Shown here: in pieces, positions 1 to 8,269 of the stretch
How positions within the stretch are numbered: position 1 is the first letter of the stretch
Layout: each line of letters opens with the position of its first letter
Source of the DNA: Weeksellaceae bacterium
GTDB taxonomy: Bacteria; Bacteroidota; Bacteroidia; Flavobacteriales; Weeksellaceae
NCBI GenBank assembly: GCA_022701475.1
Contig: JAKOOI010000256.1
Coordinates: forward strand, 1 to 8,269
Direction: 5' to 3'
DNA: 8,269 bases
The notes under the pieces: generated by a model
Databases searched by the model: none
What the model was told of the DNA's origin: nothing
The model's input: the letters and a program-made list of their open reading frames with translations, nothing else
Program-made: the position numbers and the translations under genes

Positions 1-61
1 GCATCACCAGCATCATCACGACCAGCAGAAGTCCGAGAATTAAAAGTAATTGTTCATGCAT
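1..61 (-). CDS. N-terminus of a membrane protein, possibly a CPA1-type Na+/H+ antiporter (partial)
   Basis: Reading the minus strand from the ATG at 61-59 gives MHEQLLLILGLLLVVMMLVM with no stop before the window edge, so only about 20 codons are visible. After a four-residue head the rest is strongly hydrophobic and would form a first transmembrane helix. The ATG fixes the start, because an ATG further upstream (74-72) runs into a stop at the same place. The opening resembles the first helix of bacterial CPA1 sodium/proton antiporters, but this is a weak call from so short a stretch and other multipass membrane proteins could begin alike. It lies 110 nt downstream of the acetyltransferase on the same strand. 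The spacer has a TAACTTTA box (93-86), one base off the Bacteroidetes -7 consensus, but no convincing -33 partner. Confidence 0.42.
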   Translation of the reverse strand, partial: MHEQLLLILGLLLVVMMLVM

Positions 62-171
62 CGGTTGATCTCATTTTATTTTTATTAAAGTTACAAAACA
101 AACAACAAGACTTCTCACCTCCGGGGATGCTTCTCCACGATCTGTGCGCCTTTTATCTGCCAGTCTGTTAT

Positions 172-483
172 CTATCGTTTCTCCGTGTCTTCGCCCTGTT
201 TCAGCCAGACATCAGCATATTCTTCCGGATGTCTTCTGAACTGTCCGTGGACATACGGACACAGCGGTACAATTTTCAGTCCGTTTTCCCGTGCATACGA
301 TACCAGCTTCTCCAGCAGGAGCTTTGCGAATCCTTTTCCTTCATATGCCGGACTGACTTCCGTATGATAGACGGTTAACTTTTCCCCGGTTACTGAGATG
401 TCCATTTTTCCGGCCTTCATTCCATCCGAGAACAGCTGTACTTCGCCTTTTACCTTTCCCAATACGACTTCTGTTGTTTCCAT
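172..483 (-). CDS. GNAT-family N-acetyltransferase of the small YidJ/NATD1-like type
   Basis: This is a 103-residue single-domain protein of the compact GNAT branch (Pfam Acetyltransf_CG, COG2388), which usually has about 90-110 residues, so it appears complete. Visible signatures are the strand leading to YHTEV (residues 39-43), the acetyl-CoA pyrophosphate loop YEGKGFA (47-53, the reduced R/QxxGxG/A motif), the following helix with LLLEKLVSYARENGLK, and the family motif PLCPYV...RRHPEEYADV (73-92) with Cys75 and His85. It is presumably a cytosolic acetyl-CoA-dependent acetyltransferase, but the acceptor substrate is unknown for most of this branch. The ATG at 483-481 fits the family N-terminus. 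No clear Shine-Dalgarno sequence is seen, which is usual in Flavobacteriia. A TATCTTCG box lies 70-77 nt upstream. It is transcribed divergently from the methionine locus. Confidence 0.85.
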   Translation of the reverse strand: METTEVVLGKVKGEVQLFSDGMKAGKMDISVTGEKLTVYHTEVSPAYEGKGFAKLLLEKLVSYARENGLKIVPLCPYVHGQFRRHPEEYADVWLKQGEDTEKR

Positions 484-511
484 ATATATTCTGTTTTACA
501 ATTAATGATCT

Positions 512-547
512 GAAACCTAACCTGCTGTTATCTTACCGGCAGGTTTC
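512..547. other. Hairpin-forming sequence with two alternative registers
   Basis: AACCTGC (519-525) can pair with GCAGGTT (539-545) across a 13-nt loop. Alternatively, GAAACCT (512-518) can pair with AGGTTTC (541-547). On the plus strand it is followed by TTTT and begins AAACCTAACC, like the metQ terminator at 3968-4002. On the minus strand it would be the first part of the acetyltransferase leader. No plus-strand gene precedes it, so a terminator role is doubtful. Confidence 0.35.
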
Positions 548-552
548 TTTTG

Positions 553-560
553 CGAAGATA
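553..560 (-). promoter_or_regulatory. Candidate -7 element for the acetyltransferase gene
   Basis: Read on the minus strand this is TATCTTCG, one base off the Bacteroidetes TAnnTTTG box, and it would start transcription near 546. No TTG/TTTG element is visible 17-23 nt upstream, so support is limited to the box and its distance (70 nt) from the start codon. Confidence 0.35.
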
Positions 561-867
561 AAGGGTTTGCCGGACGATGATCATGATCTATGATAATTTC
601 GGTTCAGGGATTTAAGCAGGCTTATGTTTTTCAGACTTCATGTAAATAGGTTGAAGGATGTTCCGATTGTTAAGTGATGCAGCGTCATTTCAATGTAACA
701 GAACCTGTTAACTAACCAGAATTAACCCAGAGCCTGGAAATTAATTGTATTCTTGACTGTTATTTTAAACTTCCATTCTTTTTATAGCACCAGCCGCTGG
801 ATGTTGTATAAAATTAATACACTGATAAACAGAATCTTAAATATAAAATTAAAAATTTAAAACAAAA
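561..867. other. Intergenic spacer without recognisable gene
   Basis: This is the divergent region between the acetyltransferase and the methionine locus. I see no ORF with coding character on either strand. It becomes very AT-rich from about 808 to 868, just upstream of the operator-like repeat, which could favour promoter opening or act like an UP element. A perfect 10-bp palindrome GATCATGATC occurs near 580; no function can be assigned to it. Confidence 0.6.
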
Positions 868-888
868 AGTCTACTCTTTTGGTGGACT
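868..888. promoter_or_regulatory. Inverted repeat, candidate operator of the methionine operon
   Basis: AGTCTAC (868-874) and GTGGACT (882-888) form an inverted repeat with six of seven positions Watson-Crick paired (the odd pair is T/G) around a 7-nt centre. Its centre, about 878, lies roughly 40-42 nt before the start site predicted from the TATCTTTG box. It occupies the place of the -33 element, which is otherwise poor. This position suits an activator or a repressor. The cognate protein is unknown. Confidence 0.45.
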
Positions 889-905
889 ATTAAAGATTTA
901 TGTTT

Positions 906-913
906 TATCTTTG
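906..913 (+). promoter_or_regulatory. -7 promoter element of the methionine operon
   Basis: TATCTTTG matches the Bacteroidetes -7 consensus TAnnTTTG exactly and would start transcription near 918-920. The nearest upstream TTTG (878-881) leaves a 24-nt spacer, longer than the usual 17-23. The promoter may therefore be weak on its own or factor-dependent. It would yield a leader of about 195 nt before metN that contains the leader ORF and the terminator. Confidence 0.6.
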
Positions 914-940
914 CCAGCGTATTTAAGTCAGGAAATGATA

Positions 941-1036
941 ATGGAAACAACATTCAGGTACCATTCAATGAAGAAGTCTTACATCATGAACATGATGCTA
1001 TGCTGTATGCCTTGGTATCCGGATTTCAGTGGTTGA
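941..1036 (+). CDS. Met/Cys-rich leader peptide upstream of metNIQ (31 residues)
   Basis: The short ORF starts ATG at 941, preceded by AGGA (930-933) at 7-nt spacing, an unusually good ribosome-binding site for this group; an in-frame ATG at 935 is an alternative. It ends TGA at 1034-1036. Of 31 residues six are Met (1, 10, 16, 18, 19, 23) and two are adjacent Cys (21, 22). Residues 16-23 read MNMMLCCM, then PWYPDFSG. There is no signal peptide and no family match that I recognise. It lies between the predicted transcription start and a terminator-like hairpin (1059-1088), directly before a methionine importer operon. The arrangement is that of an attenuator leader peptide, whose translation rate rather than product matters: low Met-tRNA would stall ribosomes at codons 16-23. 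It could be an incidental ORF, but the codon content matches the downstream function closely. Confidence 0.72.
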   Translation: METTFRYHSMKKSYIMNMMLCCMPWYPDFSG

Positions 1037-1074
1037 CCTTACTTTTATATATTTATTTTAAAGGCTTTACCACT
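1028..1074 (+). promoter_or_regulatory. Candidate antiterminator, mutually exclusive with the metN terminator
   Basis: AGTGGT (1028-1033) is exactly complementary to ACCACT (1069-1074), and CCTT (1037-1040) to AAGG (1061-1064); G1035 and A1036 can also pair with T1067 and T1066. Together these pairs would sequester most of the 5' arm of the terminator. The upstream strand is made of the last two leader codons, the stop codon and the next four bases. A ribosome stalled at the Met codons would leave it free, while one finishing at the stop would cover it. No folding energies were computed. Confidence 0.55.
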
Positions 1075-1095
1075 TGGTAAAGCCTTTATTTATTA
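1059..1095 (+). terminator. Intrinsic terminator / attenuator before metN
   Basis: TAAAGGCTTTACC (1059-1071) pairs perfectly with GGTAAAGCCTTTA (1076-1088), giving a 13-bp stem with an ACTT tetraloop, followed by TTTATTATT. It lies 23 nt after the leader stop codon and 28 nt before the metN ATG. No complete gene precedes it, so its likely role is conditional termination of the leader transcript rather than ending an upstream operon. Confidence 0.75.
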
Positions 1096-1115
1096 TTAAT
1101 GAACTGAATTTCAAA

Positions 1116-2144
1116 ATGATAGACATCCAAAACATTTCAAAAACCTTTTACCGGAAAAAGCAGTCCTTTAAGGCGCTGGATGGTGTAAACCTGACGGTTG
1201 AACAGGGTGACATCGTAGGCATCATTGGGTTTTCGGGGGCTGGAAAAAGCACCCTGATCCGTACGGTAAACCTCCTAGAAAGGCCGGACAGCGGAAAAAT
1301 CATCATCAACGGTAAGGATTTCACGGCATTGCCGCCGAAACAGCTGGCCCGCGAGCGGAAAAAGATCGGGATGATCTTCCAGCATTTCAACCTGCTTTCC
1401 TCCCGGACGGTTTTTGAAAATATTGCCCTTCCGCTGGAACTTGATTCCGTTCCGAAAGCTGAAATATCCCGGAAAGTGAACGATCTGCTGAAGATCGTCG
1501 GGCTTGAAGACAAAGCCGGCGAATATCCCAAAAGTCTTTCCGGAGGGCAGAAACAGCGGGTAGCTATAGCCAGGGCACTGGCCAATGACCCCTATCTCCT
1601 GCTCTGCGACGAAGCTACCAGCGCACTGGATCCCGCCACCACACAGTCTATCCTCCAGCTGTTGCGGGACATCAACCGGAGACTGGGCATCACCATACTG
1701 CTGATTACCCATGAAATGGAAGTCATCCGTTCCGTCTGTAACCATGTAGCGGTAATCGACCAGGGAAAACTGGTTGCCAAAGGCACACTCAGCAAAATCA
1801 TTTCGGATAAAGAACATCCGATCATCAGACAATTTTTAAATACCGGCGTTATGAATATACCCCAGGAACTGAACAAAAAACTACAGCAGCAGCCCCAGGC
1901 CGGGCTTTTCCCGCTGGTAGAAGTGGAAGTGAATGCAGAAATCTCCGTGGAAGAACTGCTTTCCATTATTTATGATAAATATAAAATCCCTTACAAGCTC
2001 CTGAAAGCGGATGTTGAGTATCTTGGAGATTCCAATTTCGGCAAGCTGCTGCTCCAGCTCCAGGGGAAAGAAGAAGAAAACCAGCAGGCTATCTATTATT
2101 TCAACCGGCAGAAAATACAAAATACGGTAAGAGGATATGCTTAG
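1116..2144 (+). CDS. metN: Methionine ABC importer, ATP-binding subunit MetN
   Basis: This cytoplasmic ATPase powers methionine uptake with MetI and MetQ. The 342 residues (family about 343) show, in order, Walker A GFSGAGKST (38-46), Q-loop Gln89, signature LSGGQ (141-145), Walker B LLLCDEATSALD with Asp165 and Glu166, and switch His199. A C-terminal NIL-type ligand-binding domain spans about 265-340; in E. coli MetN this domain binds methionine and causes trans-inhibition. The ATG at 1116 is chosen because MIDIQNISKTF matches family N-termini. An in-frame ATG at 1074 lies inside the terminator loop and would add 14 residues unlike the family. All catalytic motifs are intact. It is the first structural gene of the operon, behind the Met/Cys leader and attenuator, and overlaps metI by 8 nt. 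Confidence 0.96.
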   Translation: MIDIQNISKTFYRKKQSFKALDGVNLTVEQGDIVGIIGFSGAGKSTLIRTVNLLERPDSGKIIINGKDFTALPPKQLARERKKIGMIFQHFNLLSSRTVFENIALPLELDSVPKAEISRKVNDLLKIVGLEDKAGEYPKSLSGGQKQRVAIARALANDPYLLLCDEATSALDPATTQSILQLLRDINRRLGITILLITHEMEVIRSVCNHVAVIDQGKLVAKGTLSKIISDKEHPIIRQFLNTGVMNIPQELNKKLQQQPQAGLFPLVEVEVNAEISVEELLSIIYDKYKIPYKLLKADVEYLGDSNFGKLLLQLQGKEEENQQAIYYFNRQKIQNTVRGYA

Positions 2145-2793
2145 TGATACAGTAATTTCCCTTTTATCAAAGGGCGTGTGGGAAACGGTGTATATGACAT
2201 TCGTCTCGGGATTTTTCGGGTTTGTGCTGGGCATGCCGGTCGGGATTTTCCTCTTCCTGACCCGGAAAGGGCAGCTGCTGGAAAACGGCCTTTACAACCG
2301 GATCTTATCTGTTCTGGTGAATATTTTCCGTTCGATCCCGTTTATTATCCTGATCGTATGGATGATTCCTTTTACGAGGAGCCTTGTAGGGACTTCAATC
2401 GGAGTGAATGCGGCACTGGTTCCGCTGAGTATCGGTGCCGCGCCTTTCATCGCCCGGCTGGTGGAAAACAGCTTACTCGAAATTCCGGCCGGACTGATTG
2501 AGACCGCACGGGCGTTGGGTGCCACTCCGTTCCAGATCATCAGGAAAGTCCTGCTGCCGGAAGCGCTGCCTTCGCTGATCAACAACGCCACCATTACGCT
2601 GATTACCTTAGTGGGATATTCGGCGATGGGCGGCGCAGTGGGTGCAGGCGGCCTGGGACAGATCGGTTATCAGTACGGCTACATCGGATATGATGCCCTG
2701 ATTATGAATCTGGTGCTCGCTTTACTGGTGGCCCTGGTTTTTATCATCCAGTTTTCCGGGGACCGTCTGGCAAAATATTTTGACCACCGGTAA
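2137..2793 (+). CDS. metI: Methionine ABC importer, permease subunit MetI
   Basis: This is the inner-membrane permease that forms the methionine channel as a dimer on MetN. Its 218 residues agree with E. coli MetI (217) and it reads collinearly with it from the N-terminus (GVWET...MTFVSGFFGFV) to the end. It has about five hydrophobic segments, near residues 20-42, 58-80, 87-109, 148-168 and 187-208. The EAA coupling loop is ETARALGAT...LLPEALP (122-145), which docks onto MetN. The stretch ITLVGYSAMGGAVGAGGLGQIGYQYGY (156-182) is typical of the family. The ATG at 2137 overlaps the end of metN by 8 nt, which suggests translational coupling; GAGGA immediately before the ATG is too close for a standard ribosome-binding site. 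A 221-nt gap with a strong hairpin separates it from metQ. Confidence 0.96.
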   Translation: MLSDTVISLLSKGVWETVYMTFVSGFFGFVLGMPVGIFLFLTRKGQLLENGLYNRILSVLVNIFRSIPFIILIVWMIPFTRSLVGTSIGVNAALVPLSIGAAPFIARLVENSLLEIPAGLIETARALGATPFQIIRKVLLPEALPSLINNATITLITLVGYSAMGGAVGAGGLGQIGYQYGYIGYDALIMNLVLALLVALVFIIQFSGDRLAKYFDHR

Positions 2794-2875
2794 CCGTATG
2801 CTTAAGATAAACTTTGATTTTAAATAATGTGAATGTGAAATAGTGTGGTGGCCGGATTGCTGTTATTCAGTTACC

Positions 2876-2958
2876 GACAGGCGGAACCTACGGCAGGAAG
2901 GAACAGGTTTGTGAGAATTGACCTATTTTAAGAACTCCTTTCTGCTGATCCGCCGGTT
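2876..2958 (+). other. Long imperfect hairpin between metI and metQ
   Basis: The central stem pairs 2891-2902 with 2936-2947 over 12 consecutive positions, including two G-U pairs. An outer stem pairs GGCGGA (2880-2885) with TCCGCC (2949-2954), extended by GAC (2876-2878) with GTT (2956-2958) after one mismatch. An inner AGGT/ACCT pair (2905-2908/2921-2924) is possible. There is no U-run, so it does not look like an ordinary terminator. It may stabilise or delimit the flanking messages, allowing metQ to be expressed at a different level from metNI, or be a short inserted repeat. No promoter consensus for metQ is seen in the gap. Confidence 0.6.
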
Positions 2959-3014
2959 TCCGGATTTCCCGCTTTGATCCATTCATCCATCTTCTCCATA
3001 TAAAATAATTGACA

Positions 3015-3827
3015 ATGAAAAAAATAACAATTCCCGGGCTGGTAACAGCATTCCTGCTTTTATTCACCGCCTGCCAATCCACTAAAAAAGAGGATCCGAA
3101 TTACATAAAAGTAGGTGTTATTGCGGGTCCGGAGCAGGAAATTGCCGAAGCGGCGAAGAAAGTCGCGAAAGAAAAATACAACCTGGAAGTGGAACTCATA
3201 TCCTTCAACGACTATGTAGTCCCCAACGAAGCCCTGAACACCGGCGATATTGACGCTAATGCCTTTCAGAATGTCCCTTACCTGAATGAACAATCCAGGC
3301 AGAGAGGCTATCAGCTTGCCATTGCGGGCAAAACGTTTCTTTACCCCATTGTGGCTTACTCAAAAAAGATCAAAGCCATCAGTGAACTTCGGGACGGAAG
3401 CACCATTGTCATTCCCAATGATCCTACCAATGGCGGACGCTCCCTGCTTCTGCTCCAGAAAAACGGACTGCTGAAACTGAAAGAAGGAATCGGCTTACTG
3501 CCGAAAGTAACCGATATTACGGATAACCCGAAACAGCTGAAAATCCTGGAGATCGAAGCGCCCCAGCTTCCGAGGGTACTTGATGACCAGGAGGTGGTTA
3601 TCGCTGTTATCAATAATAATTTTGCCGTTCAGGCCGGGCTGGACCCGGATCAACAGGGAATCCTGAAAGAAGACAGGGATTCGCCTTACGTCAACCTGAT
3701 CGTTTCCCGGCAGGATAACCGGAACACTGACAAAGTGAAGAATTTTGTCAAAGCCTACCAGTCGGAGGAAGTTCTCCGGAAAGCAAAGCAAATTTTTAAA
3801 TCCGGCGCCGTAAAGGGCTGGGACTGA
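3015..3827 (+). CDS. metQ: Methionine-binding lipoprotein MetQ (NLPA family)
   Basis: This is the substrate-binding lipoprotein that delivers methionine to MetNI at the outer face of the inner membrane. The 270 residues (E. coli MetQ 271) begin with a lipoprotein signal, MKK, a hydrophobic stretch, then the lipobox FTAC with lipidated Cys20, and a polar linker. The NLPA/Lipoprotein_9 domain spans about 31-268. Family motifs include DANAFQNVPYL (80-90) and IPNDPTNGGRSLLLLQKNGL (133-152), in which Arg142 is in the segment that contacts the ligand in related structures. The ATG at 3015 is preferred over an in-frame TTG at 3009 because MKK starts the signal sequence. It lies in the same direction as metNI but 221 nt downstream, past a strong hairpin, so it is probably cotranscribed with separate mRNA control. 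Receptors often exceed their permease in number. NLPA proteins can bind D-methionine too. Confidence 0.95.
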   Translation: MKKITIPGLVTAFLLLFTACQSTKKEDPNYIKVGVIAGPEQEIAEAAKKVAKEKYNLEVELISFNDYVVPNEALNTGDIDANAFQNVPYLNEQSRQRGYQLAIAGKTFLYPIVAYSKKIKAISELRDGSTIVIPNDPTNGGRSLLLLQKNGLLKLKEGIGLLPKVTDITDNPKQLKILEIEAPQLPRVLDDQEVVIAVINNNFAVQAGLDPDQQGILKEDRDSPYVNLIVSRQDNRNTDKVKNFVKAYQSEEVLRKAKQIFKSGAVKGWD

Positions 3828-3868
3828 TTTTACAGATACAAACGTGAAAACTTTCGCCAGCGGTGAAT

Positions 3869-3966
3869 GGTGAATTTCGCTTTGCGAGTCAATTTTGCTT
3901 CGCAAGTGAATCTCAGGCTAAGGTTAAGAGTTCACCATTGACCCGCAGGAATTGACCATTGACAAG
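3869..3966. repeat. Degenerate intergenic repeat, copy 1
   Basis: TGAATTTCGCtTTGCGaGTCA (lower case differs) recurs at 4746-4766. It is followed by GTGAAT...CAGGCT...GTTCACCATTGAC (3906-3942), whose ends can pair, and by GGAATTGACCATTGACA. Positions 3931-3964 match 4858-4891 at 30 of 34 bases. It lies directly after metQ and shows no coding character. Confidence 0.65.
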
Positions 3967-3967
3967 C

Positions 3968-4002
3968 AAACCTAACGGGTTTTGAAAACCCGTTAGGTTT
4001 TT
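3968..4002 (+). terminator. Terminator downstream of metQ
   Basis: AAACCTAACGGGTTTT (3968-3983) and AAAACCCGTTAGGTTT (3985-4000) are perfectly complementary 16-nt arms around a single base, so about 14 pairs with a small loop, followed by TT. It stands 141 nt after the metQ stop, beyond a repeat. The reverse strand also ends in a T-rich run, so it could work in both directions, although no minus-strand gene needs it. Confidence 0.8.
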
Positions 4003-4011
4003 ACAGGCTCT

Positions 4012-4140
4012 TCCGTCAATAGCCCGGATCCCAGCGGTTACCCCACAGCAGGACGGGAAGGTTTGAGCGCATTTTGGGTTTAGCGGCGGAGCAGGTTGGC
4101 GTGAGTCGGTGCGAGGAGTATGAGCGGAGAGCCGGAAACA
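4012..4140. other. GC-richer non-coding segment, possibly an intergenic element
   Basis: This block begins near TAGCCCGGAT (4019-4028) and ends near GAGAGCCGGAAACAG (4127-4141). It is clearly richer in GC than its surroundings. Open frames crossing it have no recognisable protein character and continue into the repeats. Its edges resemble dispersed spacer elements I recall from Chryseobacterium-like genomes, but I cannot verify this. No rRNA or tRNA features are apparent. Confidence 0.35.
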
Positions 4141-4162
4141 GCTCCTGAAAACAGCAATGATG

Positions 4163-4233
4163 AATTTTGCTGTGCAGGTGAATTTGAGGATGGTTGGATT
4201 GTATGGGCACAAGTGTGATGCTTGCGCAAGCAG
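4163..4233. repeat. Degenerate intergenic repeat, copy 2
   Basis: The stretch from CAGGTGAATTTGAGG through GGTTGGA...TGGGCACAAG to GCTTGCGCAAGCAG (4175-4233) aligns with 4778-4833. It shares the CTTGCGC(c/a)AGC core, which also appears in altered form near 3850. The preceding TGAATTTTGC... (4161 on) resembles 3884-3893. It is mutated enough to be an old copy. Confidence 0.55.
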
Positions 4234-4340
4234 TAATTAACGTGAGCTCGATGTAAAATCAGGTGTATGGTCAATAGGATTGATTCAGCCCATTTACTAC
4301 GGAATGCATGATGATCCGGCTTCAACCAAATGCGGATAAG

Positions 4341-4408
4341 TTTCGGCTAAAGCCCCATGTATGCCGCTATAATGACGTCGGGCTAAAGCCCGACGCTATT
4401 GATCGATG
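4341..4408. repeat. Two-hairpin repeat element, copy A
   Basis: This composite consists of TTTCGGCTAAAGCC (first half) and CGTCGGGCTAAAGCCCGACG (4376-4395), which folds into a 9-bp stem with a two-base centre, followed by CTATTGAT. The same order of parts recurs at 7493-7560. It is a REP-like palindromic unit located in a gene-free region. Confidence 0.65.
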
Positions 4409-4651
4409 CGACTCTCGTTTAATGTGAACCCGAAGCAGAGACCGGATGGCAAGGCTGAAGGGCAAGCCGGATACCGGAAATTCCTTTTGTCAGGATTAGA
4501 TCAGATCAGAAGTGTTTATGATCAGATACAATCGTTTTTCAGGCTGATTAAAATGAATTCCACGTAAAGTCATGACTTGTTCATCTGACTCTTGGACCCG
4601 CCTTGATAACCATCTGAAAATAAATGAAATGCTATTGAATTCACGTTGATT

Positions 4652-4688
4652 TAATATCTCCGAAAATTCATATTCCGGAGGAATATTA
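4652..4688. repeat. Imperfect inverted repeat
   Basis: TAATATCTCCG (4652-4662) pairs with CGGAG (4676-4680) plus ATATTA (4683-4688), leaving GA (4681-4682) bulged: 11 base pairs in two blocks. It stands just before repeat copy 3 and has no T-run on either strand, so it may mark the edge of that element. Confidence 0.4.
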
Positions 4689-4697
4689 TCTGTGTAA

Positions 4698-4893
4698 GTG
4701 AATTTTCAGGCTGACGTAGAATTCACCATTGACAGGGGACAGATGTTGAATTTCGCCCTGCGGGTCAGTTTTATCCACAGTTAAATTCAGGCTGGTTGGA
4801 GGGTGGGCACAAGCTCGGAAGCTTGCGCCAGCGGTAAATTTGCAGGCTGAAATAAAATTCATTATTGAACCGAAGGAATTGACCATTGACAGC
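4698..4893. repeat. Degenerate intergenic repeat, copy 3 (tandem composite)
   Basis: GTGAATT (4698-4704) and AATTCAC (4720-4726) form an inverted repeat around CAGGCTGA, ending in CATTGAC like copy 1. A second block, TGAATTTCGCCCTGCGGGTCA (4746-4766), then TGGGCACAAG...GCTTGCGCCAGCGGT, follows as in copy 2. Then comes TAAATTTGCAGGCTGA...AAATTCATTATTGA and GGAATTGACCATTGACA, matching 3931-3964. The whole looks like repeat units joined head to tail. No coding capacity is evident. Confidence 0.65.
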
Positions 4894-4963
4894 CCATCCG
4901 TGCTATTGCCTCTCTGCCATACTGGTTATAAATCACCATTTTTGCCGATTTTCATTTTCTCAA

Positions 4964-4993
4964 TTTGAGATAATAAAATTTTTGCTATTTTTG
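4964..4993 (+). promoter_or_regulatory. Promoter of the family 3 glycoside hydrolase gene
   Basis: TTTG (4964-4967), an 18-nt spacer and TATTTTTG (4986-4993) match the Bacteroidetes -33/-7 promoter pattern TTTG...TAnnTTTG fully. Transcription would start near 4999-5001, giving a very short leader of under 20 nt with no clear Shine-Dalgarno sequence, which is normal in this group. Confidence 0.72.
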
Positions 4994-5017
4994 TTTCCAA
5001 TCAACAAATAGCTTTTT

Positions 5018-7282
5018 ATGATCAAGAAAATCGCTGCTGTAAGTTTATTTATGCTTATTTCCGGTTCTTATACGGCTCAGGATAGCAAAACACTGCCGGC
5101 TTATCTGGATGAATCCAGGCCTGTGGAGGAACGGGTGAAAGACGCACTTTCCAGGATGACGCTGGAAGAAAAAGTAGCTATGCTCCATGCCCAGTCCAAA
5201 TTCAGTTCACCGGGTGTTCCACGATTAGGAATTCCTGAATTCTGGACCACCGACGGCCCGCACGGTGTACGTCCGGAAGTCATGTGGGACGAATGGGACC
5301 AGGCCGGATGGACCAACGACTCCATCATCGCCTATCCTGCCCTGACCGCTCTTTCGGCAACCTGGAACAAAAAAATGTCCTGGAACTACGGGAAAGCCCT
5401 CGGCGAGGAAGCCCGTTACAGAAAGAAAGATATTCTCCTGGGCCCGGGAGTGAATATTTACAGGACCCCGCTGAACGGAAGGAATTTCGAATATATGGGC
5501 GAAGACCCTTACCTGACCTCGAAAATGGTAGTGCCTTACATCAAAGGCGTACAGTCGAACGGCGTGGCTACGTCGGTAAAGCATTACGCCCTGAACAACC
5601 AGGAAATGTTCCGCCATACCAGCAATGTGACCGTAGACGACAGAACCTTGTATGAAATCTACCTGCCGCCGTTCAAAGCAGCGGTGACCGAAGGGGATTC
5701 CTGGACGATCATGGGAGCCTATGACATGTACAAAGGCCAGTACGCCAGCCAGAACCAATACCTGCTCAATGACATCCTGAAAAAAGAATGGAAGTATAAA
5801 GGGGTGGTGGTTTCCGACTGGGGTGCCGTTAACAACACTGAACAGGCCATCCGCAACGGCCTGGACCTGGAATTCGGGAGCTGGACCAACGGGCTTTCCG
5901 CCGGCACCAAAAATGCCTATGACAATTATTACCTGGCCAAACCATACCTCGACCTCATCAAAGCCGGAAAAGCCGGCACGCAGGAACTGGATGACAAGGT
6001 GACAAGGCTTCTCAACCTGGCCTACAAAACCACGATGAACCGCAACAAGCCTTTCGGGAACATTGCTTCCGAAGAACACAGGTCTGTCGCAAAAGAAATC
6101 GGTGAAGAAGGGATTGTGCTGCTGAAAAACCAGGGCAATGTTCTCCCGATCGATATGAATAAGGCCAGAAGAATTGCCGTGATCGGAGAAAATGCCATTA
6201 AGGTGATGACCGTGGGCGGAGGTTCCTCTTCCCTGAAAGTAAAATATGAAACCCTGCCGCTGGACGGGATCAAAGCAAGATTCGGGAAACAGGCGGATGT
6301 GCAGTATGCCAGAGGCTATGTAGGGGATGTCGGCGGTGAATACAACGGCGTAAAATCCGGACAGGACCTGAAAGATTCCCGCTCGCCGCAGGAACTGCTG
6401 AATGAAGCCGTAGAGCTGGCAAAAAAATCAGATTATGTAATCTTTGTCGGCGGACTGAACAAAGCGGATTTCCAGGACAGCGAAGGCAATGACAGAAAAA
6501 GCTATGGCTTACCGTACAACCAGGACAACGTTATTTCAGCCCTGGCAAAAGCCAACAAGAACCTTGCAGTAGTGATGGTTTCCGGAAATGCAGTGGCCAT
6601 GCCGTGGATTAAGGAAGTGCCGGCGGTGCTTCAGGGCTGGTACCTGGGCTCGGAGGCCGGAAATTCACTGGCTTCCTTACTGGCAGGAGACGCCAATCCT
6701 TCCGGGAAACTGCCGTTTACATTTCCGGTAAAGCTGGAAGACAATTCTGCCCATCAGCTGGGAGAATATCCCGGAAATAAGGAAGAACTGGCAGCCGGAA
6801 AAGGGAAAGACCAGAAAAACCCGATCAACATTACATACAATGAAGGCATCTTCGTAGGCTACCGCTGGCACGATACCAAAAAAATCAAGCCGCTGTTCAG
6901 CTTCGGCCATGGATTGAGCTATACGACTTTTGAATTCGGAAAAGCGAAAGCAGACAAAACTGCTATGGGCCAGGATGATAAGATTACTTTCACGGTATCT
7001 CTTAAAAATACCGGGAAAAAAGCCGGTGCCGAAGTGGCCCAGCTGTATATCTCCGACCTGAAATCTTCCGTAGAAAGGCCTGAAAAAGAGCTGAAAGGCT
7101 TCGAGAAAGTATACCTGAATCCGGGAGAGCAGAAAGAAGTGACCTTTACGATCGACAAAACCGCCCTAAGCTTCTTTGATGCCCAAAAGCATGAATGGGT
7201 AGCGGAACCGGGAGACTTCGAGGCCCGGATCGGGAATTCCTCGGATGCTGTCAAAACCAAAGTAAAATTTACGCTGAAGTAA
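5018..7282 (+). CDS. Secreted glycoside hydrolase family 3 enzyme, probable beta-glucosidase
   Basis: The 754-residue protein hydrolyses terminal beta-linked sugars by a retaining mechanism, probably in the periplasm. A signal peptide (MIKK, hydrophobic core) likely ends at Ala20, leaving Gln21. The GH3 N-terminal barrel (about 30-350) shows TDGPHGVR (78-85), Arg155 in NGRNFEYMGEDP, Lys188-His189, and the nucleophile motif VVSDWGAV with Asp267. The C-terminal alpha/beta domain (about 385-635) carries DSEGNDR with Glu489 as the candidate acid/base. A fibronectin III-like domain (about 660-745; GAEVAQLYI, ELKGFEKVYL, PGEQKEVTF) completes the usual architecture at normal length. It has its own promoter (4964-4993) and terminator (7312-7339), so it is probably monocistronic. 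No SusC/SusD genes are adjacent. Whether it prefers glucosides or xylosides cannot be read from the sequence; bglX-like is the generic name. Confidence 0.93.
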   Translation: MIKKIAAVSLFMLISGSYTAQDSKTLPAYLDESRPVEERVKDALSRMTLEEKVAMLHAQSKFSSPGVPRLGIPEFWTTDGPHGVRPEVMWDEWDQAGWTNDSIIAYPALTALSATWNKKMSWNYGKALGEEARYRKKDILLGPGVNIYRTPLNGRNFEYMGEDPYLTSKMVVPYIKGVQSNGVATSVKHYALNNQEMFRHTSNVTVDDRTLYEIYLPPFKAAVTEGDSWTIMGAYDMYKGQYASQNQYLLNDILKKEWKYKGVVVSDWGAVNNTEQAIRNGLDLEFGSWTNGLSAGTKNAYDNYYLAKPYLDLIKAGKAGTQELDDKVTRLLNLAYKTTMNRNKPFGNIASEEHRSVAKEIGEEGIVLLKNQGNVLPIDMNKARRIAVIGENAIKVMTVGGGSSSLKVKYETLPLDGIKARFGKQADVQYARGYVGDVGGEYNGVKSGQDLKDSRSPQELLNEAVELAKKSDYVIFVGGLNKADFQDSEGNDRKSYGLPYNQDNVISALAKANKNLAVVMVSGNAVAMPWIKEVPAVLQGWYLGSEAGNSLASLLAGDANPSGKLPFTFPVKLEDNSAHQLGEYPGNKEELAAGKGKDQKNPINITYNEGIFVGYRWHDTKKIKPLFSFGHGLSYTTFEFGKAKADKTAMGQDDKITFTVSLKNTGKKAGAEVAQLYISDLKSSVERPEKELKGFEKVYLNPGEQKEVTFTIDKTALSFFDAQKHEWVAEPGDFEARIGNSSDAVKTKVKFTLK

Positions 7283-7311
7283 TTTCACGTATTTCTATTT
7301 CTAAAATGTGG

Positions 7312-7339
7312 TGCCCGGACAAAAATCCGGGCATTTTTT
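7312..7339 (+). terminator. Terminator of the glycoside hydrolase gene
   Basis: TGCCCGGA (7312-7319) pairs with TCCGGGCA (7326-7333) across the loop CAAAAA, followed by six T and ATTTT. This is a textbook intrinsic terminator 29 nt after the stop codon. Confidence 0.92.
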
Positions 7340-7492
7340 ATTTTATTCCCTGAGCTCTGCTGCCATGTAACCGTACCTGACGTAACACATAACGCACATA
7401 AGATAAAGACTGAAACTTTGAAAACAGTTCAGAACACATCAGAAAGCCCATTTATCACATGCCCTATTTTAATTGGCCAGAACCTGTTCATC

Positions 7493-7560
7493 ATTTGGCT
7501 GAAGCCGGATTGCAGATGGCTGTGACGACACCGGCCTGAAGCCCGATGCTATTGATATGA
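7493..7560. repeat. Two-hairpin repeat element, copy B
   Basis: ATTTGGCTGAAGCC, then about 20 nt, then CCGGCCTGAAGCCCGATGCTATTGAT, repeats the order of parts seen at 4341-4408. The second palindrome has decayed here (CCGGCCTGAAGCCCGATG instead of a perfect stem), so this copy looks older or less constrained. It lies 154 nt downstream of the glycosidase terminator. Confidence 0.55.
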
Positions 7561-7907
7561 ACATTTACACAACCGGTTGTGAAGGTGAATGCTGAGCCTG
7601 TGATCCGAATTATTGAGCATCGTTGAGGCTGAATACCGTGATCTTTTATGAGAAGAACGTTTATACTGAACCTGTCGAAGTACCTTCTTATGTTTCTCAT
7701 GTATTCAATAAAATGAGGCTTCTGTAGGATCTGTTAATGTAACTACAGCCGTTGATAAAAAGTAAACAGGCCGGATAATACATTCCAGATATGTTGAAAA
7801 CTCCCCTCGCAGTCCTCAAAAATCTCTGATTTTTAATCTCATGTGTTCTAAAATATACGCAATATATTAAAGTCTTCTCCATTTCTCATGTGTCCCCATA
7901 CAGACCT
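7561..7907. other. Gene-free stretch with short repeats
   Basis: No credible gene is seen on either strand. It contains ACTGAACCTGTCGAAGTACC (7665-7684), close to the CTTCGACAGG(c/t)TCAG word I recall as common in bacterial intergenic repeats. It also has three copies of TCTCATGT (7695, 7837 and 7884, the last two extended to TCTCATGTGT). An inverted pair ATGAGAA...TTCTCAT brackets 7648-7700. Short frames here have poor composition. Confidence 0.5.
7818..7834 (-). terminator. Weak terminator candidate downstream of the MFS gene
   Basis: AAAAATC (7818-7824) and GATTTTT (7828-7834) form a 7-bp, A/T-dominated stem with a 3-nt loop. It lies 74 nt after the MFS stop on the minus strand. The five T residues lie in the 3' arm rather than after it, so its strength is doubtful. 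Confidence 0.3.
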
Positions 7908-8269
7908 TTATGAAACGGCTGCCGCTTCCCGTACGGACTTCCTGTTGCGGATGATGAAATACAGCAGCGCAGCCAATGCGGCAACGGCATATCCTGCCAG
8001 GATCAGCAGGCTGACCCCGCCGGCTGCATAATCAGAAGGGAAAAATCCGCCCAGCAAGGTCATAAAAGACAGTCCTATCCCGCCGCCGAGGAAATAACTG
8101 GTGGATCCTACGCTGGAAGCCACTCCATAGTCCGACGGCTCTACTTCCTGTATGCCGAGCACCGATAATGCCGTAAAACAGAACGTCATGCCCGTTCCGG
8201 AAATACAGGCGGCTCCGAGCAATACCAGCAGCAGCGGATGGCCCAGGTACACTGAACCCAGCAACAGGA
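7908..8269 (-). CDS. MFS transporter, C-terminal part, probably DHA2 (EmrB/QacA-like) (partial)
   Basis: About 120 codons are visible on the minus strand, open to the window edge and ending TAA at 7910-7908, so the start of the gene is missing. There are three hydrophobic segments: one through LLLVLLGAACISGTGMTF, one through GSTSYFLGGGIGLSFMTLL and one through LLILAGYAVAALAALLYFII, followed by a basic tail RNRKSVRE. The loop sequence VEPSDYGVASSVGSTSYFLGG, with small residues and a Gly-rich helix after it, is typical of the C-terminal half of drug:H+ antiporters with 14 helices, where the segment favours proton-coupled export. Substrate cannot be inferred. A DHA1-type transporter remains possible because the N-terminal half is not visible. 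It converges with the glycosidase gene. Confidence 0.85.
   Translation of the reverse strand, partial: LLLGSVYLGHPLLLVLLGAACISGTGMTFCFTALSVLGIQEVEPSDYGVASSVGSTSYFLGGGIGLSFMTLLGGFFPSDYAAGGVSLLILAGYAVAALAALLYFIIRNRKSVREAAAVS

Follow-up and report, generated by a model that had tools for sequence, protein, structure and literature searches.

Attenuators of the classical trp and his type in Proteobacteria combine cognate codons with mutually exclusive antiterminator and terminator structures, and the position of the ribosome decides which of the two forms. Several systems involving sulfur amino acids have been described. In Streptomyces lividans TK24, the Met/Cys-containing leader metL precedes metNIQ and has been proposed as an attenuator (PMC8079986). 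The uORFC-8-2 motif combines a uORF with CC codons and a two-stem structure before cysS (PMC8632094), and in Actinobacteria leader peptides with Cys runs precede cys operons, in a study whose authors saw no RNA structures upstream of methionine operons (PMC1262725). A T-box precedes a methionine transporter (PMC2965389), and leader-like sORFs occur in 5′ UTRs of Bacteroides (PMC7366714).

Here, we analyse a window of 8,269 nucleotides, positions 1 to 8,269 (forward strand) of contig JAKOOI010000256.1 from the assembly GCA_022701475.1 of a Weeksellaceae bacterium, in which a short ORF rich in Met and Cys codons and a hairpin lie upstream of metNIQ. We consider it likely that the ORF (941-1036) and the hairpin (1059-1088) constitute a ribosome-mediated attenuator, which would permit readthrough into metNIQ at low levels of charged Met-tRNA and/or Cys-tRNA.

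Results

The three transporter genes lie on the forward strand and are predicted to encode a methionine importer. The metN gene (1116-2144), for an ATP-binding protein with a C-terminal NIL region, matches TIGR02314 over its full length at 434 bits, under the cut-off of 499.7. The permease gene metI (2137-2793) scores over the cut-off of NF008049, as does the substrate-binding lipoprotein gene metQ (3015-3827) for NF008285, the latter match having been computed from a TTG at 3009, upstream of the start at 3015. All eleven of the closest named metN loci (L003-L013), at 79-86% identity to the window metN, are labelled Chryseobacterium, and we infer from these labels that this is the genus of the window (hereafter, the genus). 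The assembly comprises 602 contigs, with a completeness of 73%, and a plasmid DNA similarity search returned only short matches, to alphaproteobacterial records. An Rfam Flavo-1 RNA match at 4017-4142 of the forward strand is below threshold (28.2 bits against a gathering score of 42).

The locus had been described beforehand in a sequence-only reading, and direct inspection confirmed its main elements: a 31-codon ORF on the forward strand from ATG 941 to TGA 1034-1036, an AGGA ribosome-binding site at 930-933, the residues MNMMLCCM at codons 16-23 (986-1009), and a perfect 13-bp hairpin at 1059-1088 with loop ACTT and a T-rich tail from 1089 (TTTATTATTA). Two of its spacings were corrected: the hairpin begins 22 nt after the stop codon, not 23 nt, and ends 27 nt before the metN ATG at 1116, not 28 nt. 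An alternative in-frame ATG at 935 would make the ORF two codons longer; the start at 941 aligns with an ATG in 57 of 59 relatives. Met and Cys account for seven of the 30 residues after the start (binomial P = 3e-6, with a background taken from four of the window's own proteins and Cys set up to 0.7%, the observed value being lower).

Alignment, coding and first pairing tests used 59 unique genus leaders, reduced from 66. The leader frame contained no internal stop in any of them, whereas the other two frames were interrupted in 59 and 54, and pN/pS was 0.59 in the leader frame against 0.93 and 1.07 in the others. All eight gaps within the aligned ORF were of 3 nt, and the stop codon occupied a single aligned column (TGA in 56 leaders, TAA in three). 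No family for the leader peptide emerged from an NCBIfam search. The pattern is that of a putative short coding ORF in a 5′ leader, as an attenuator possesses, and the Met/Cys cluster before metNIQ, the predicted stalling site, provides codons that correspond to the operon's function.

The sequence-only reading had named beforehand what would speak against it, namely an ORF or Met codons that relatives do not share; the survey found the ORF, its Met/Cys codons, the stop position and the terminator genus-wide. All 165 genus loci recovered by DNA similarity had a stop exactly where the mapping placed it (161) or shifted by a single base (four). These loci, some of them from genomes sampled more than once, yielded 120 distinct C-terminal 30-mers, and in every one of them codons -16 to -7 include one or more Cys and a minimum of two Met. 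The Met at -14 persists in 118, that at -9 in 113, the Cys at -10 in 111 and the Pro at -8 in 110; the full invariance of Cys -10 suggested by the 59 unique leaders (59/59) was rejected, as Trp or Ser replaces it in a few peptides of the wider sample. A tally made with a pattern that itself demands a Cys is given no weight here for the conservation of Cys.

As a query, the leader found a match in 57 of 60 genus genomes, two of which (G040 and G053) had short weak matches only and no metN. Among the three unmatched genomes, G004 and G050 carried both metN and the leader, and G045 had no metN. With a second leader as the query, matches came from 162 genomes out of 320 in the family; 159 of these lay among the 173 genus genomes. 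The leader lay within the examined stretch at 28 of 29 genus metN loci (28 from an order-wide sample, own genome included, plus G050); at the 29th, in G056, it was on another contig.

A search directly before metN had given the impression that many species had lost the leader. This was rejected when anchoring on the leader DNA revealed an intervening gene for an EamA-family transporter, present between leader and metN in many species of the genus. The order leader-EamA-metN-metI-metQ was found in L007 (EamA at L007:2987-3982), L011 and L012. Because the EamA gene sits between leader and metN, the leader probably controls exporter and importer jointly in such species.

Residues outside the cluster are conserved as well: Lys -21 in 53, Ile -18 in 54 and Pro -8 in 55 of the 59 leaders. 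This exceeds what simple codon counting requires and counts against the attenuator reading. It would suit an arrest peptide, a nascent chain that binds a ligand (SAM, Met or Cys, for example) in the ribosome and stalls without waiting for charged tRNA, all the more as these residues are kept with synonymous changes and pN/pS is 0.52 in codons -21 to -16. However, leaders of other genera have little in common beyond CC and Met codons, and codons that match the transported amino acid offer a simpler link, so that we regard an arrest peptide as improbable.

The stem of the hairpin, which folds at -18.0 kcal/mol, was paired in 99.2% of cells across 69 distinct sequences, with 22 compensatory cells. 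The whole leader (919-1092) folded better than all of 200 shuffles (z -3.4), whereas 919-1075, from which the terminator 3′ arm is missing, was equalled by 89 of 200; the folding excess of the leader therefore belongs to the terminator. A predicted intrinsic terminator thus stands between leader ORF and first gene, as in attenuators.

The bases around the stop codon are almost invariant (GTGGnTGACCTTAC), though the position preceding the terminal Gly admits Cys, Ser, Arg or Gly, and the constraint on this region therefore looks RNA-level. The region is complementary to AAGGCnnTACCAC, in the 5′ arm and loop of the terminator: GUGG-nUGA-CCUU around the stop faces AAGG-n5-CCAC. From this pairing, the pair counts and partial folds, we predict an antiterminator whose 5′ strand (GTGG-TTGA-CCTT, 1029-1040, forward strand) includes the leader stop codon, and whose 3′ strand (AAGGCTTTACCAC, 1061-1073, forward strand) is the terminator 5′ arm plus loop.

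The nine antiterminator pairs were formed in 90.3% of cells over the 69 distinct sequences, which had been chosen by a pattern requiring Met, Cys and a terminator-like end, against 34-54% when the partner was slid. In the same sequences three pairs had changed on both sides, compared with zero to two in the slid controls, although neither the number of two-sided changed cells (five) nor the covariation score was above every slid control. The clearest compensatory change, found in L192, L194 and L200, replaces GTGGT with GGAGT and ACCAC with ACTCC, and is probably a single event in one clade. The pairing was first noted before the species with GGAG/CTCC entered the sample, and species from another sample supplied the pair-count support. 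Four loci (L110, L117, L180 and L196) were scored as broken, yet retain GTGG three bases upstream.

Shuffle tests gave a mixed picture. For the window, the pairing came to -9.9 kcal/mol where shuffles gave -5.6, and 2% of them did as well; only 11 of 59 genus sequences passed a single-sequence shuffle test at the 5% level; and with columns shuffled 51 of 300 alifold runs were as good, so that the antiterminator is unsupported by alifold alone. That the RNA up to 1075 was no more structured than its shuffles also speaks against the pairing. Within the genus, an exclusive antiterminator set by ribosome position is supported by the conserved pairing, its compensatory change and the partial folds, and is weak in shuffle tests. 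Overall, genus-wide conservation and some covariation for the stop-overlapping antiterminator support the earlier interpretation of ORF and terminator before metNIQ as an attenuator, and we judge it to be real, conserved and probably functional.

These findings are consistent with a model in which scarcity of charged Met-tRNA and/or Cys-tRNA would hold the ribosome at the Met/Cys codons, allowing the antiterminator to pair before the terminator 3′ arm is made, with readthrough into metNIQ as the result. A ribosome that has advanced to codon 29, or to the stop codon inside the antiterminator, would instead cover the antiterminator and let the terminator form. Within the model, we infer both the translation of the ORF and termination at the hairpin.

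We folded the RNA of the window as transcribed as far as the hairpin loop (1075), assuming a ribosome edge of 15 bases. The antiterminator pairs had a probability of 0.80-1.00 in every tested case in which the front edge had not passed 1028 (A sites at Met18, Cys21, Cys22, Met23 and Trp25), and of zero when that edge stood at 1040 (A site at Phe29) or at 1049 (A site at the stop codon). Once the 3′ arm was present the terminator was favoured in every tested case, and the decision of the switch must therefore fall during transcription. Classical attenuators likewise choose their structure during transcription. The antiterminator also formed in the partial fold without any ribosome, which leaves basal termination without translation unexplained by the model. 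When the complete leader of the window was folded, the stop-codon region paired with the start of the leader, a possible protector hairpin that this full-length fold alone suggests.

A palindromic site (GTCTACTCTTTTGGTGGACTA, 869-889, on neither strand in particular), which the genus alignment shows to be conserved upstream of the leader, is a probable transcription-factor operator. It is followed by a promoter-like box on the forward strand (TATCTTTG, 906-913), aligned in relatives, which resembles what we take to be the flavobacterial -7 box, TAnnTTTG. As a palindromic DNA site lies upstream of the leader, the metNIQ operon probably has a second control layer. With at most one mismatch, the pattern GTCTACTnnnnnRGTRGACTA gave 33 matches in ten genomes (loci L137-L141 and L146-L175), whereas its reversed control gave 12; besides the leader, it occurs at few further places per genome.

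These further sites give the palindrome the look of a sulfur-regulon operator. One precedes a free-standing NIL-domain gene (L147:1106-1417, reverse strand; about 103 residues, Pfam NIL) that resembles the C-terminal domain of MetN; similar free-standing NIL-domain genes follow the palindrome in L137-L141, L153 and L160. The palindrome also lies just upstream of, or adjoins, the SAM-I riboswitches carried by TonB-receptor genes (L239, L240 and L242-L244; L231-L236), and was seen by eye at a peroxiredoxin-like gene.

The presence of an operator-like palindrome, together with the ability of Met/Cys clusters to bind copper, would fit an alternative in which the ORF encodes a small functional Met/Cys-rich peptide (metal-binding, for example), the hairpin is an ordinary terminator, and metNIQ is under the upstream operator only. 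We consider this very unlikely, as it leaves unexplained the pairing of stop region and terminator loop with its compensatory change, and the constant position of the leader before metN or EamA-metN.

SAM-I riboswitches were found in all ten genus genomes searched, that of the window included, at one to three sites each. Such a frequency might suggest that a riboswitch, for SAM or another ligand, controls metNIQ too. None of the SAM-I sites listed is located at metN, and at the metN locus, the vicinity of the leader included, there was no Rfam riboswitch or T-box match at E values up to 5; a riboswitch or T-box at metN was rejected on that ground, and we give riboswitch control of the operon hardly any credence. 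The SAM-I sites examined precede a MetX-like gene (the best NCBIfam match, below cut-off) and TonB-receptor genes. One transcription factor may therefore serve both the importer and the SAM-controlled genes, with a different RNA-level sensor for each.

The order-wide sample comprised 296 genomes, of which 43 had metN: 28 of the genus (own genome included), five of g3 (same family), one of g7 and nine of g11, a group that resembles Flavobacterium, judged by its leaders. In seven of the nine g11 loci, L212 and L213 having no leader there, and in all four named Flavobacterium loci (L014-L017), metN follows a terminator and an ORF that contains a CC doublet and, in most cases, Met codons. The ORFs of all five g3 loci, and of the named MAG locus L045, are short and have CC but only a few Met codons. 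In the g3 loci (L214-L218), inspection by eye picked out a AACACTAT-like stretch upstream of the leader ORF and ATAGTGTG downstream; these two could pair around the ORF, perhaps in a different switching geometry. No leader was found before metN in g7 (one locus) or in the Pedobacter (two), Dyadobacter and Apibacter loci; L049, with too little upstream DNA, fell outside the leader survey.

Flavobacterium follows the same plan in other letters, with GGCTT at the end of the ORF and AAGCC in the terminator arm, and five of 11 sequences passed the 5% single-sequence shuffle test. In g3 none of six passed and no clear antiterminator emerged. Cys codons, stop, terminator and metN are common to the three genera, and Met codons are strong in two. 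The sequence-only reading is amended in that Cys codons are as diagnostic as its Met codons and common to all three leader-bearing genera. A narrower version of the attenuator reading, overlapping with it, is that charging of Cys-tRNA alone is sensed, Met codons being incidental or serving to tune speed. The CC doublet is indeed what the genus has in common with g11 and g3, and Met codons are few in g3; but within the genus the conservation of Met equals that of Cys, as its presence at least twice in all 120 peptides and at -14 in 118 attests, and the controlled genes are those of a methionine-type importer. On balance, we find sensing of Cys alone unlikely, though less so than an arrest peptide.

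Discussion

Our preferred reading remains an attenuator that responds to Met-tRNA and/or Cys-tRNA. In a bolder form, which we put forward tentatively and with slightly more doubt than belief, the single leader peptide would act as a two-amino-acid sulfur gauge, the Met and Cys codons of the eight-codon cluster reporting a shortage of either charged tRNA. It would be a Bacteroidota attenuator that splits the sulfur regulon, uptake reading tRNA charging, and a biosynthetic gene and TonB receptors reading SAM through riboswitches.

If the attenuator reading is right, these genomes combine SAM riboswitches with an importer whose control runs through the translation of Met/Cys codons, and the sensing of amino-acid supply is separated from that of SAM. 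The leader element is compact, conserved and provided with natural compensatory variants, and so could be tested with few reporter constructs.

With trp- and his-type attenuators the locus would share cognate codons, an exclusive antiterminator and terminator, and a decisive ribosome position. It differs in amino acids and phylum, and in that the 5′ strand of its antiterminator holds the leader stop codon. Like the uORFC-8-2 motif, it has tandem Cys codons, an intrinsic terminator and predicted stalling at low Cys-tRNA; unlike here, cysS rather than metN lies downstream of that motif, a difference by which we set the two apart, and no Met codons are mentioned for it (PMC8632094). In the Cys-run leaders of Actinobacteria, too, a short ORF before sulfur genes has Cys codons close to its stop, but conserved terminators are lacking and the authors suggest Rho (PMC1262725).

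S. lividans metL is likewise a short ORF before metNIQ, of 29 residues with CMCRRMC near the end (PMC8079986). It belongs to another phylum and has a leaderless start; its authors, who stress Met and Thr, found no typical terminator, and the part of the paper used here describes no antiterminator. We liken the two by published sequence only (PMC8079986). The sequence-only reading knew of no described Met-responsive attenuator in Flavobacteriia. That view survives in so far as the matches listed from the open-licence PubMed Central literature include no Met- or Cys-reading attenuator in Bacteroidota. Since a Met/Cys leader of metNIQ has been proposed in S. lividans (PMC8079986), the kind is already known, and the variant described here is apparently new among the papers searched.
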